Shown piece after piece: positions 1,960 through 30,022 of a stretch of DNA of 30,022 bases. Every line of letters starts with the position of its first letter. The first letter of the stretch is position 1. The translations under genes were made by a program, and so were the position numbers. The notes beneath the pieces are model-generated. The model was not told the origin of the DNA, did no database searches, and worked only from the letters and a program-made list of their open reading frames with translations. The DNA comes from a virus: positions 1 to 30,022 of the IMG/VR virus record IMGVR_UViG_3300031977_002656, one strand, 5' to 3'.

Positions 1960-2504
1960 CGCTGGCACTCCTTCGCCCATCGGCTGATGAGCTCGGGCCT
2001 CGGGTCAAGCTGAACGCAGGGTCGGCCCGTCGCATCAAGGACCGTGTCGGCGTGCTTCCACGCCAGGTCGGCGAGGGTGTTCCAGTTGACCCAGCTGGGG
2101 GAGATGGCGTAGTGCTGACCGCGGGGGCAGTCGCAGGTCGCGGCGAACTCCCGCAGCTCTCGGCGCTGCTGGTCAGCAGGCTTGCCGAGGGGCTCTCGAC
2201 GCAGGACGGCGACGATCCGCCGGCCCGTCTCCGAGCAGGCATCGCAGCCAGCGGGCAGCCTGGACGCATCGGAGACCGTCGACCGCTTCGAGGCCATCAG
2301 CCGGATCTGGGCAGGCTTGGGGGGCGGTCCCTCCTCCTCCATCAGCCAGCGGTGGACCGCGGAGGCGACGTCGGAGTCCGAGCAGTTCTGGAGGACGCTG
2401 AACCAGACGTCGATGGTCCTCGGGTCGTCCGCGCTCTTCCGCAGGCTGCTGTAGGCCGCTCCAAGGTTGGCAAGGGCTTCCTGGATGCCGTGTCGCGTCG
2501 CCAT
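1956..2504 (-). CDS. probable helicase-loader-type replication protein
   Basis: This 182-residue protein follows the initiator gene with a 1-base TGATG overlap, the place where lambda P-type and related helicase loaders sit. The N-terminal half has a pattern typical of small phage replication or loader-inhibitor proteins: a short helical domain with DVWFSVLQNCSDSDVASAVHRW, then an acidic stretch and PPKPAQIRLMA (about 30-72). A Cys group follows (CDACSETGRR about 90, CDCPRGQH about 125), which could bind zinc. There is no Walker motif, so it is not a DnaC-type ATPase. The function is inferred from position and shape; it would bring the host replicative helicase to the origin. Confidence 0.55.
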   Translation of the reverse strand: MATRHGIQEALANLGAAYSSLRKSADDPRTIDVWFSVLQNCSDSDVASAVHRWLMEEEGPPPKPAQIRLMASKRSTVSDASRLPAGCDACSETGRRIVAVLRREPLGKPADQQRRELREFAATCDCPRGQHYAISPSWVNWNTLADLAWKHADTVLDATGRPCVQLDPRPELISRWAKECQR

Positions 2505-3475
2505 CAGGCCAGCCCCATCATCTTCGCGTACTCGGGATCGTGCTTCGCGGTCTCGCGGATCCGCTCCATGAGCTCGGCCTGCTCGCGCTCGTAGGCTTCG
2601 CGCTTCAGCCGCCGCTCCTCTTCCCAGCGTCCCATGCTGGTCACCGGCGGGGGGACCGGGCTGGGCTTCGAGGGCGTCGACGTGTCAGGCCGCCCCTGCT
2701 CATCCCACCGCTGCGCACGGTCGACGCGCTGGCTCCACTTGTCCGCCTTGTAGAGGGTCGCGCAGCCGGTGTAGACCGTCTGCTGGTCGTTCTCGCCTCG
2801 AAAGTAGGCGGCATCCGGGGCGAGGTGGACCCAATCCGCCACCAGCAGGCAGGTCTCCAGGTCGTCCTCGGCGAGGCGTCCCCGGATCTTGCGGGCGTCC
2901 GCCTCGCGCAGCTTCCGAGCTCGGGGGTGATACTGCTTCCAATGGAGCCAGACCTGCCTCGCCGGGCTCACTTCGTCAGGCTTGCCTGACAGAGAGTCGT
3001 CTGGGGTTGTAGGTTGGGGTTGTAGGTTGGGGTTGGTATATTTGTCCCCCGGCGTGTCCCCCGACGTGTCCCCCGACGTGTCCCCCGGTGTGTTTCCGTT
3101 CACGTCCTGAGCCTGCTCAGATGGCGGATCGACGTGTCCCCCGAGGTGTCCCCCGACGTGTCCCCGGAGGTGTCCCCGGAGGTGTCCCCCGGAATTAACG
3201 CGGACCCGGCGGCTTCTGGTCCGGTCTCCCGCGGTCTCGATGGCGACCTGGCCCGCCTCGACCAGTCGAGCCAGCAGCGCCTCGGACTGCTTCCGCGAGT
3301 CCATGCACCACAGCTGCTGGAGGTAGCGGACGGCGCAGGCGAAGGGCCGATGCCGCAGGTGGTCCGAATGGATAAAGAGCAGCGCCACCGCGCCGCGTTC
3401 CTGGGTCGTCTCCGCGCAGTCGAGGGCATCCCAGGGAATGCGGACGTGCGACACGCGGACCTCTCGGTCGTTCAT
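2504..3475 (-). CDS. replication initiator with origin iterons in its gene
   Basis: The 323-residue protein has a winged-helix-like N-terminal part (about 1-95, from NDREVRVSHVRIPW to RRVRV), a low-complexity middle made of 4-residue repeats (GHLRGHLRGH, then GDTSGDTSGD), and a C-terminal domain (about 180-265) with the pattern VWLHWKQYHPRARKL, RGENDQQTVY and KADKWSQRVDRA. That C-terminal pattern is common in phage and plasmid replication initiators. The middle is encoded by 12-bp DNA repeats that are probably the origin, as in lambda O. The ATG at 3475 follows AGGAAGCAGAAGC; the ORF is open further upstream but only through the structured RNA region. The tail is a charged helix (RWEEERRLKREAYEREQAEL). 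Confidence 0.75.
   Translation of the reverse strand: MNDREVRVSHVRIPWDALDCAETTQERGAVALLFIHSDHLRHRPFACAVRYLQQLWCMDSRKQSEALLARLVEAGQVAIETAGDRTRSRRVRVNSGGHLRGHLRGHVGGHLGGHVDPPSEQAQDVNGNTPGDTSGDTSGDTPGDKYTNPNLQPQPTTPDDSLSGKPDEVSPARQVWLHWKQYHPRARKLREADARKIRGRLAEDDLETCLLVADWVHLAPDAAYFRGENDQQTVYTGCATLYKADKWSQRVDRAQRWDEQGRPDTSTPSKPSPVPPPVTSMGRWEEERRLKREAYEREQAELMERIRETAKHDPEYAKMMGLA
3003..3046. repeat. 13-bp tandem repeat and TA-rich patch beside the iterons
   Basis: The 13-bp unit ggggttgtaggtt occurs twice head to tail, followed by a partial third copy (ggggttgg). Next comes the TA-rich ggtatatttgt, beside the first iteron. In phage and plasmid origins a helically weak patch next to iterons is where the strands open, so this may be the unwinding element. 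It also encodes the Pro/Gln/Asn-rich linker of the initiator. Confidence 0.45.
3042..3193. repeat. ten 12-bp iterons in two blocks, candidate replication origin
   Basis: On the plus strand the unit is close to cGTGTCCCCcGa. Block 1 has five units starting about 3042, 3054, 3066, 3078 and 3090; the outer two are degenerate. Block 2 has five units with GTGT starting at 3134, 3146, 3158, 3170 and 3182. The last unit of block 1 and the first of block 2 start 44 bp apart, so the blocks are read in different codon frames of the initiator gene. The same DNA unit is kept although the encoded peptides differ, which argues for a DNA-level role, most likely initiator binding. Confidence 0.7.
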
Positions 3476-3504
3476 GCTTCTGCTTCCTGTTTTAGCCACC
3501 AGCC

Positions 3505-3629
3505 CCGTGCAACCGGCCCGGAGCAACTCGGGCCGGCGGGCCGAAGCCCAGCACAGGAAGATGGCAGTGTGCAGCCCCGAAGGGCTGGGGGGAGAGTAGG
3601 CCAGCGGGCCCAGCTCGTCAAGGCTCGAA
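3505..3629 (-). ncRNA. structured RNA element, copy A (upstream of initiator)
   Basis: Read on the minus strand, the element begins with TTCGAGCCTTGACGAG (3629 down), then a pyrimidine-rich stretch, a CAGCCC-UUCG-GGGCUG hairpin (3587-3572), and a three-way junction. The junction has an outer stem CUGUGC (3556-3551) with GCACGG (3510-3505), a GGGC-UUCG-GCCC hairpin (3549-3538), and a hairpin CCGGCCCG/CGGGCCGG (3536-3513). A second copy lies at 3718-3839: its first 56 bases are 55/56 identical, while the last stem differs on both sides and still pairs. The outer stem holds only on the minus strand, through a G-U pair. It ends 30 bases before the initiator ATG. No known RNA family is claimed. 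Confidence 0.65.
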
Positions 3630-3692
3630 CCGTTTCCGTTTTGGAATGGGTTTGCGACCCGAATGTACTTCGGCCTTATCAATCTCAGTCAT
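3618..3692 (-). CDS. candidate 24-residue basic peptide between the RNA elements
   Basis: This short ORF starts at an ATG (3692) with GGAAA about seven bases upstream. It encodes 24 residues: an acidic start (MTEIDKAEVH) and a basic end (RKPIPKRKRFEP). Its last three codons and stop (FEP, TGA) are the same as those of the preceding gene ending at 3828, because both lie in the copied RNA element. Its DNA is much richer in A and T than its surroundings. It could be a leader peptide or a small product, or a remnant of a longer gene whose end was copied. Confidence 0.4.
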   Translation of the reverse strand: MTEIDKAEVHSGRKPIPKRKRFEP

Positions 3693-3717
3693 GTCTGTTT
3701 CCGTCTGTAGCGCCGGC

Positions 3718-3839
3718 CCGTGCAGCCCACCCCGGGATCAGCGGGGTGGGGGGCCGAAGCCCGCACGGAAACGACGTGTTGATGCCCCGAAGGGCTGGGG
3801 GGAGAGTAGGCCAGCGGGCCCACCTCGTCAAGGCTCGAA
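3718..3839 (-). ncRNA. structured RNA element, copy B
   Basis: This is the second copy of the element at 3505-3629, with the same order on the minus strand: TTCGAGCC..., a GCCC-UUCG-GGGC hairpin (3795-3784), outer stem CCGUGC (3768-3763) with GCACGG (3723-3718), a GGGC-UUCG-GCCC hairpin (3762-3751), and a last stem CCCACCCC/GGGGTGGG (3750-3726). The last stem has a different sequence from copy A but the same 8-bp length, a sign of compensatory change. Its first 12 bases are the final codons of the upstream gene, which ends at 3828. Confidence 0.65.
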
Positions 3840-4262
3840 GCCCGGAGCGAACTCCAGCGCCAGCAGCAGGGCCTCGGCCTCGGTCGAGACCTGGACGCCC
3901 AGAATGGAGAAGTCCCCGGCGGTGATGTCCCAGCCACCAGCGACGCCGTCGTCCTCGCCCTCATGGTAGGTGGCGGCGAGCGTGTCGTCCTTCCACGCGG
4001 CGCGGACCAGGGCCAGCATCGCGCCCGAGGTCGTCGGGTGGACCAGGTTGGGCAGGACGACCCGCGACCCGCCGGTCTGAACCTCCTCGACCGACCCGCC
4101 GGCGCTCCACAGGTCCACCATCGGAGGGCCGACCCACTCGCTACCCGGCGGCGTGACGTAGACGACGAGCTCGTCGTCGAGCGTCCTCATGCCTTCGACC
4201 CACCTCCAGCCAAGGCAAGCGATAGCCCGCTCCCCCAGGCGCTTCAGCTTGTCGCGGTCCAT
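3828..4262 (-). CDS. hypothetical protein, 144 residues
   Basis: No family is recognised with certainty. The N terminus is a basic helix (DRDKLKRLGERAIACLGWRW) followed by beta-rich segments (ELVVYVTPPG, VDLWSAGG). The end (GVQVSTEAEALLLALEFAPGFEP) resembles the last helix of many small phage proteins of unknown role. The ATG at 4262 shares one base with the stop of an upstream reading frame, but no strong ribosome site is visible. The frame stays open upstream to 4451, through a tandem repeat. It is the first clear gene of the replication block, and its last codons lie inside RNA element B. Confidence 0.65.
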   Translation of the reverse strand: MDRDKLKRLGERAIACLGWRWVEGMRTLDDELVVYVTPPGSEWVGPPMVDLWSAGGSVEEVQTGGSRVVLPNLVHPTTSGAMLALVRAAWKDDTLAATYHEGEDDGVAGGWDITAGDFSILGVQVSTEAEALLLALEFAPGFEP

Positions 4263-4413: not shown

Positions 4414-4513
4414 AGTCTCGGCCTGGCCGTGTTACGTTCAAGGCGGAACAAAAAGAGCCCGCCAGTCTCGGCCTGGCCGTGTTACGTTCAAGGCGGAACA
4501 AAAAGAGCCCGCC
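4414..4513. repeat. perfect 50-bp tandem duplication
   Basis: The bases 4414-4463 are repeated exactly at 4464-4513. Each copy holds gttcaaggcggaac, two GTTC/GAAC arms that could form an operator, and a ggcgg...ccgcc pair able to fold. The length of 50 is not a multiple of three, so the copy shifts any reading frame. Full identity suggests a recent event. Confidence 0.9.
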
Positions 4514-4660
4514 GGACAGATCAGGGCCGGCTACCTCTCGCGGAAGATGCGCCGAACGCGAGCGGGAACGCAGTAAACCGGAGGCCGAGCGCAGTAGGCC
4601 GAAGGCGTCGCGAAGGAGTCCGTCACCGTGCGGCCTGGAGACGAGCAGTTCAGCGGTGCC

Positions 4661-4686
4661 AGCCCCCGGGGACTTCCCCGGGGGCT
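4661..4686. other. perfect 11-bp hairpin, G+C only stem
   Basis: AGCCCCCGGGG and CCCCGGGGGCT pair fully around a 4-base loop (actt on plus, aagt on minus). There is no T-run on either side, so it is not a standard terminator. It lies in the leader of the replication block, about 55 bases after the putative start at 4741, and could slow or pause the polymerase or protect the RNA end. Confidence 0.6.
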
Positions 4687-4764
4687 GTTGCTCTGGCCTA
4701 CGAGGGCTGACCGCGTGTCGGTGCCCGCTTTGTAGTCTCATCGTGTGCTCTCCTTGTTGGTGTC

Positions 4765-4810
4765 AAAAATGCCAGAAATGCCAGAACCGGTCTTTCTGGC
4801 ATTTTTGGCA
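4765..4810 (-). terminator. strong intrinsic terminator after the adenine methyltransferase
   Basis: On the minus strand TGCCA (4810-4806) and AAATGCCAGAA (4804-4794) pair with TTCTGGCATTT (4786-4776) and TGGCA (4774-4770): 16 pairs with one A/C mismatch, loop AGACCGG. Five T follow (4769-4765). It starts three bases after the stop of the methyltransferase gene. The next leader motif begins right after the T-run, so any read-through would feed the replication genes. Confidence 0.8.
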
Positions 4811-30012: not shown

Positions 30013-30022
30013 ACCAACAACA
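30013..30022. repeat. right copy of 10-bp terminal direct repeat (candidate cos end)
   Basis: The last ten bases repeat the first ten exactly (accaacaaca). Its first nine bases also occur in the early gene leaders (accaacaacgg), so part of the match could be a shared motif. Together with TerS next door, a cos end is the simplest reading. Confidence 0.5.

Follow-up and report, generated by a model that had tools for sequence, protein, structure and literature searches.

Two copies of a structured RNA on the minus strand of a virus record (IMG/VR; 30,022 bp, the whole of it hereafter called the window) probably act as bistable translational leaders, gating the operon of a putative phage replication initiator by switching between two folds. 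Each copy would be a leader RNA, probably preceded by its own promoter. In the first fold (state A), a 5′ hairpin (P0) and a three-way junction (P1/P2/P3) would form and the Shine-Dalgarno sequence (SD) of the next gene would be free; in the second (state B), P0 and P3 would stay, P1 and P2 would open, and an anti-SD strand on the 5′ side of P1 would pair with the SD. State A would form first because its parts are transcribed ahead of the SD. After the SD has been transcribed, the predicted stabilities favour state B in three of the four copies compared here; young transcripts would thus yield a pulse of initiator translation that is then shut off, and a bound factor holding state A would prevent this shut-off. 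We infer the promoter, the transcript start site, the kinetic timing, any ligand, and the initiator function of the gene.

The minus strand carries most genes of the window, and the order along it is a 144-aa gene (3828–4262), copy 2 of the RNA, a 24-aa ORF (3618–3692), copy 1, a 323-aa gene (2504–3475), and a 182-aa gene (1956–2504). The 144-aa gene has no assigned function, and its C-terminus (FEP*) lies within copy 2. The codons TTC GAG CCT TGA close both ORFs upstream of the copies (3618–3629 and 3828–3839); the duplicated unit therefore takes in the end of the upstream gene. The 24-aa ORF, MTEIDKAEVHSGRKPIPKRKRFEP when read directly from the sequence, lies 3′ of copy 2. Pfam and PHROG searches with the 323-aa gene gave no match. 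Nine 12-bp iterons (TGTCCCCCGRCG) are located at 3043–3209, within its coding sequence, and are likely the replication origin. Replication initiators with an internal origin carry iterons in their coding sequence, and we term the gene initiator-like because of these iterons; the 182-aa gene that follows, with a weak helicase-loader match (phrog_2289, E-value 0.027), is also consistent with this assignment. Single-sequence structure models of two initiator-like proteins had mean pLDDT values of 44 and 50 and were unusable.

The first-pass annotation had described the two minus-strand copies at 3505–3629 and 3718–3839 as a duplicated three-way-junction RNA, and both the coordinates and the content proved correct. 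A 56-nt part (3574–3629 and 3784–3839) is nearly identical between the copies (98% identity), and the parts downstream of it share one fold on the minus strand, consisting of P1 (CYGUGC/GCACGG), P2 (GGGC-UUCG-GCCC), and a 9-bp P3. In copy 2, the 5′-terminal hairpin P0, (G)CCC-UUCG-GGGC, occupies 3783–3796, and the junction occupies 3719–3767 (P1, 3767–3763 with 3723–3719; P2, 3762–3751; P3, 3750–3726). In copy 1, P0 (AGCCC-UUCG-GGGCU) occupies 3573–3586 and the junction 3506–3555 (P1, 3555–3551 with 3510–3506; P2, 3549–3538; P3, 3537–3512). The last stem, P3, had been said to differ fully between the copies and yet to pair in both; the pairing holds, but in the correct register only three of the nine pairs differ, each on both sides. 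On the plus strand, each G-U pair in the aligned fold (three in total: two from copy 1 and one from a third copy, in contig L003) would become an A-C mismatch, and the UUCG tetraloops can be read only on the minus strand. The fold energies of the two copies are unremarkable for their composition (z of −1.3 and −2.2), and the case therefore depends on comparison.

Further copies were sought in viral contigs. An exact 18-mer scan found L003, a 5.6-kb contig from a close relative of the window phage, with a single copy whose P3 sequence differs from both of those in the window. The motifs GUGC, GGGC-UUCG-GCCC, and GCAC, required at suitable distances from one another, occurred in 18 contigs. One of these, L035 (99,775 bp), comes from a phage otherwise unrelated to the window phage and carries its copy at one end. 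The L035 copy has the whole architecture. Features that the search pattern did not require are also present: a perfect P3, the ACAC linker, the 5′ hairpin AGCCC/GGGCU, the TACTC box, and a start codon at the same distance. In a covariance-model test with L035 held out, a model built from the window copies and L003 (R2) scored L035 at 50.5 bits (E-value 1.7e−7 in 644 kb, somewhat flattered because the pattern by which L035 was selected shares P1 and P2 with the model), and the next best score, among approximately 80 control loci, was 17.5 bits. The same annotation had regarded a lack of further copies with compensatory changes as evidence against a functional RNA; L003 and L035 are two such copies. 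Its proposal that the transcript running into the initiator gene holds a functional RNA is supported by homologs equally placed in two other phages, by covariation, and by wobbles and loops that fit the minus strand only.

Wider searches added no copies. Of the 13 contigs from a further viral pattern scan, L035 was again the sole true copy, and the remaining pattern matches in viral and bacterial genomes had no score under a second model (R1). The 50 matches of a P0+P1+P2 pattern in a genome scan were all due to chance, a pattern search of 346 genomes gave a match rate similar to that of the reversed control, and blastn searches of phage and plasmid collections gave no homologs. R1 found nothing in 294 genomes of one phylum, a result that says little because the filter scores few candidates per genome. 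The best plasmid match, in Streptomyces NBC_00015, covered P2–P3 only (14 bits) and was rejected. As the first-pass annotation had supposed, the RNA belongs to no known class: no Rfam 15 family reached its gathering cut-off, and the window had no match; cold-seep-1 RNA (14.8 bits against a cut-off of 125.8) and mir-3138 (21.8 against 90) were chance matches. The best reading is that the element is an RNA family new to Rfam that works by a known kind of mechanism.

In all four cases, the element separates an upstream gene from the beginning of a putative replication-initiator operon, and neither the window nor the L035 contig has a copy elsewhere. A short ORF (16 aa in L003 and 18 aa in L035), placed like the 24-aa ORF of the window, lies 3′ of the element in both contigs and has an ATGA overlap with the start of a larger gene, which suggests translational coupling. 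This larger gene contains internal repeats in both contigs (11-bp iterons in L035, with GTCCCCACCGA at 1260–1377 of its initiator-like gene) and is followed by a gene of approximately 200 aa. Between L035 and the window, the genes in the initiator and loader positions have no detectable sequence similarity, and the same is true of the initiator-like proteins. Between L003 (4227–5102) and the window (2504–3475), the C-terminal half of the initiator is common (95% DNA identity) and the N-terminal half is unrelated, which is, judging from the DNA comparison, a domain swap directly behind the leader. Therefore, the leader has been kept while the initiator has changed.

When the RNA was folded over its length between the putative 5′ end and the start codon, the minimum-energy structure in three of the four copies was not the three-way junction. 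In this second fold, the strand just 5′ of P1, which also overlaps it, pairs with the SD of the next gene, P3 is retained, and the 3′ strand of P2 additionally pairs, in three copies, with the GGGC just behind P1. The pairs are CUUCCUGU (3553–3560)/ACAGGAAG (3483–3490, the SD of the initiator gene) in copy 1, GUUUCCGU (3765–3772)/ACGGAAAC (3697–3704) in copy 2, GUCCUCGGU/ACCGAGGAC in L035, and UUCCUG/CAGGAA in L003. The anti-SD strand of copy 2 has CGU in common with P1, and states A and B are mutually exclusive because the GUGC of P1 begins with bases that also belong to the anti-SD. The leader is therefore predicted to have two mutually exclusive folds, one of which masks the SD, and one of the four copies (L003) prefers the open fold. 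The first-pass annotation missed the second fold because its span ended before the SD and start codon; its interpretation is thus incomplete, and the RNA is likely a translational switch.

The contiguous anti-SD/SD match is 8 nt in copies 1 and 2, 9 nt in L035, and 6 nt in L003. At geometry-matched sites in these phages, matches of at least 8 nt occurred at 0.9% and of at least 9 nt at 0.14%; the 6-nt match of L003 alone is unremarkable. The anti-SD strands match their own SD best; copy 1 and L003 share one linker, which matches copy 1 best. Dinucleotide shuffling gave p values of 0.02–0.06 in three copies and 0.36 in L003. The anti-SD duplex energies are ordinary for this GC-rich DNA, and duplex energy was abandoned as a statistic because GC-rich control sites often reach it.

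Covariation was assessed in a hand-made alignment (A6), which was fitted to the structures, with gap positions padded with N and all letters verified against the sequences. Because of this fitting, the pair counts lean towards the structures; moreover, the four sequences include two from one phage and a third (L003) from a close relative, so that three of them are closely related. In state A, 98.9% of cells were paired and four pairs had changed on both sides; in state B, 97.3% were paired and eight pairs had changed on both sides; and in the anti-SD/SD helix, 97% were paired and five of the nine pairs had changed on both sides (eight such cells). None of 500 shuffles reached the covariation score in any of the three cases. 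When the partners were slid by 1–3 columns, pairing fell to about 30–60% (about 40–53% for the anti-SD helix). The partner of column 36 is column 88 in state A and column 109 in state B, and it fits both in all four copies (UG, CG, UA, and GC with the P1 partner; UA, CG, UA, and GC with the SD partner). The inner four pairs of P1 and the whole of P2 are invariant in all copies, and covariation neither supports nor contradicts them; the invariant parts are stems only, four sequences being too few to define an aptamer core. At the level of sequence, this comparison shows that the four copies are homologous and share their position, that P3 and the anti-SD/SD helix covary, and that the two predicted folds exclude one another.

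The energies and the order of folding rest on computation only. Up to the start codon, the energies of states A and B were calculated as −55.9 and −56.4 kcal/mol for copy 1, −48.7 and −58.8 for copy 2, −52.5 and −52.2 for L003, and −57.1 and −62.7 for L035. In transcripts ending just before the SD, the junction (P1) had a predicted probability of 0.97–1.0 in all four copies; when the SD was included and the transcript reached the start codon, the anti-SD/SD helix had a probability of 0.99–1.0 in copies 1 and 2 and L035, and the full L003 transcript favoured state A (anti-SD/SD, 0.06). The computed barrier between the states was 13–19 kcal/mol (direct-path values, hence upper bounds), suggesting that the fold is chosen during transcription or with help and not by free exchange. 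An RNA thermometer was considered but is not supported, since the fold shares hardly moved in silico from 20 to 55°C.

The 56-nt part, which the first-pass annotation counted as RNA, may instead be a promoter. Tentative −35-like (TTGACG) and −10-like (TACTCT) boxes lie at 3826–3831 and 3803–3808 in copy 2, 17 nt apart, with the −35 box overlapping the TGA stop of the upstream gene (TTGAC-N18-TACTCT pattern, 3803–3831), and at 3616–3621 and 3593–3598 in copy 1. TTGACG-17-TACTCT occurs in three copies and TTGCCG-17-CATACT, at a similar distance to the hairpin, in L035; TACTC is kept in both L003 and L035. Within the identical 56 nt, the 5′ hairpin begins 7 nt beyond the boxes, and the spacing to the −10 box would place the transcript starts at A3796 (copy 2) and A3586 (copy 1). 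A strict sigma-70 consensus scan did not call the promoter. If present, it would explain why sequence is kept there and structure elsewhere. A hairpin over the promoter region (UGGGCC/GGCCUA) was rejected because it is absent from L035. No terminator-like site (a GC hairpin with a T-run), as an intrinsic terminator or attenuator would have, was found on the minus strand at 3473–3839.

Several other explanations were weighed against this model. In one, the junction would serve as a receptor that recognises a metabolite or a protein of the host or phage; once this is bound, state A would persist and the initiator would be translated, and in the unbound RNA the SD would be masked. Such control is a sub-case of the two-state model and not its opposite, and we consider it possible but rather doubtful. 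The same RNA precedes initiators without detectable similarity, and that of L003 has a different N-terminal half, making a signal other than the initiator itself plausible; the core of P1 and P2 are invariant in all copies; and given the computed barrier, a bound factor could decide the fold during transcription. However, the junction has no conserved unpaired nucleotides that could form a pocket, and the P2 loop is different in L003 (CUUGC). It is unlikely that the RNA is a plain structured leader, a 5′ stabiliser and fixed translation damper of which one fold matters in cells, with the SD match incidental. The 5′ hairpin at the inferred start does resemble mRNA-stabilising hairpins, the anti-SD energies are ordinary, and L003 hardly forms state B, but double-sided changes in five anti-SD/SD pairs, together with a column that covaries with both of its partners, speak against this reading.

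The strong stems and the iterons nearby in the initiator gene would also suit hairpins that act in DNA, such as part of a replication origin or a protein-binding palindrome. This is very unlikely, as three wobble pairs and the UUCG loops fit one RNA strand only, the pairing extends to the SD and start codon, and the orientation follows transcription in all copies. Hardly credible is a mobile or recombining repeat (REP/ERIC-like, or an integron attC-like cassette end) that regulates nothing: although the duplication extends into the upstream gene, so that both ORFs end in FEP*, as in a cassette duplication, the position before the initiator operon is constant in three phages, other copies are absent from the window and the L035 contig, and pairing is kept while the sequence diverges.

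The bistable leader has counterparts among known systems. In plasmid rep-gene leaders such as R1 tap/repA, a structured leader RNA and a coupled short ORF precede the gene of the replication initiator. The window leader likewise has RNA structure and a short ORF before an initiator-like gene, with the ATGA stop-start overlap in L003 and L035, but its structure is different and it belongs to a phage, not a plasmid. As in translational riboswitches with an anti-SD, it has an expression platform in which one strand is contested by an upstream helix and the SD; unlike them, it has no recognisable aptamer with conserved unpaired bases and no Rfam match. In the RNA phage MS2, a transient fold of the maturation-gene leader permits translation until a cloverleaf closes (PMC6733600). 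A similar course is predicted for the window leader, with the SD accessible at first, masked once the final fold has formed, and the timing set by folding; MS2, however, has an RNA genome, whereas this leader occurs in a double-stranded DNA phage, forms a compact three-way junction, and takes its anti-SD strand from P1. The phage lambda cIII mRNA leader adopts two alternative conformations (PMC4166951, citing Altuvia 1989), shifts its fold with temperature, and governs an early decision. Like the window leader as modelled here, it belongs to a phage mRNA with two folds that exclude each other, one of them blocking the ribosome-binding site. The two leaders differ in sequence and fold, however; the computed shares of the window leader barely move from 20 to 55°C, and it precedes a replication-related gene and recurs in front of initiators that are unrelated to one another. 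The proposed mechanism is nearest to the lambda cIII and MS2 maturation leaders, and differs from them in fold, gene, phage type, and carriage before dissimilar initiators.

The timing and amount of the replication initiator in DNA phages are commonly attributed to promoters and repressors. If a two-state leader is conserved before dissimilar initiators, it would constitute a separate, RNA-level control of the onset of phage replication. A bolder reading, which we consider less likely than not, is that the element is a portable RNA timer or receptor placed before initiators of no detectable similarity, and that the fold change, not the initiator itself, sets the start of replication. With approximately 115 nt and four natural variants, the leader offers a compact system for testing timing by folding, and the covariance model can be used to find more copies.

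Other features of the window were also recorded. Relatives retrieved via the terminase covered structural genes only, and the terminase alignment gave no relatives among bacterial genomes. Upstream of the 144-aa gene, a perfect 50-bp tandem repeat at 4414–4513 contains a hairpin-like GGCGG..CCGCC flanking a T/A run. Operator-like intergenic inverted repeats of TGCCAGAAA lie at 4761–4810, near a perfect 13-bp hairpin at 4660–4687. The contigs of four relatives, from different records, stop at exactly base 30022 of the window, one of them a base earlier, and these shared ends suggest that the genome itself ends there, close to the terminase genes.
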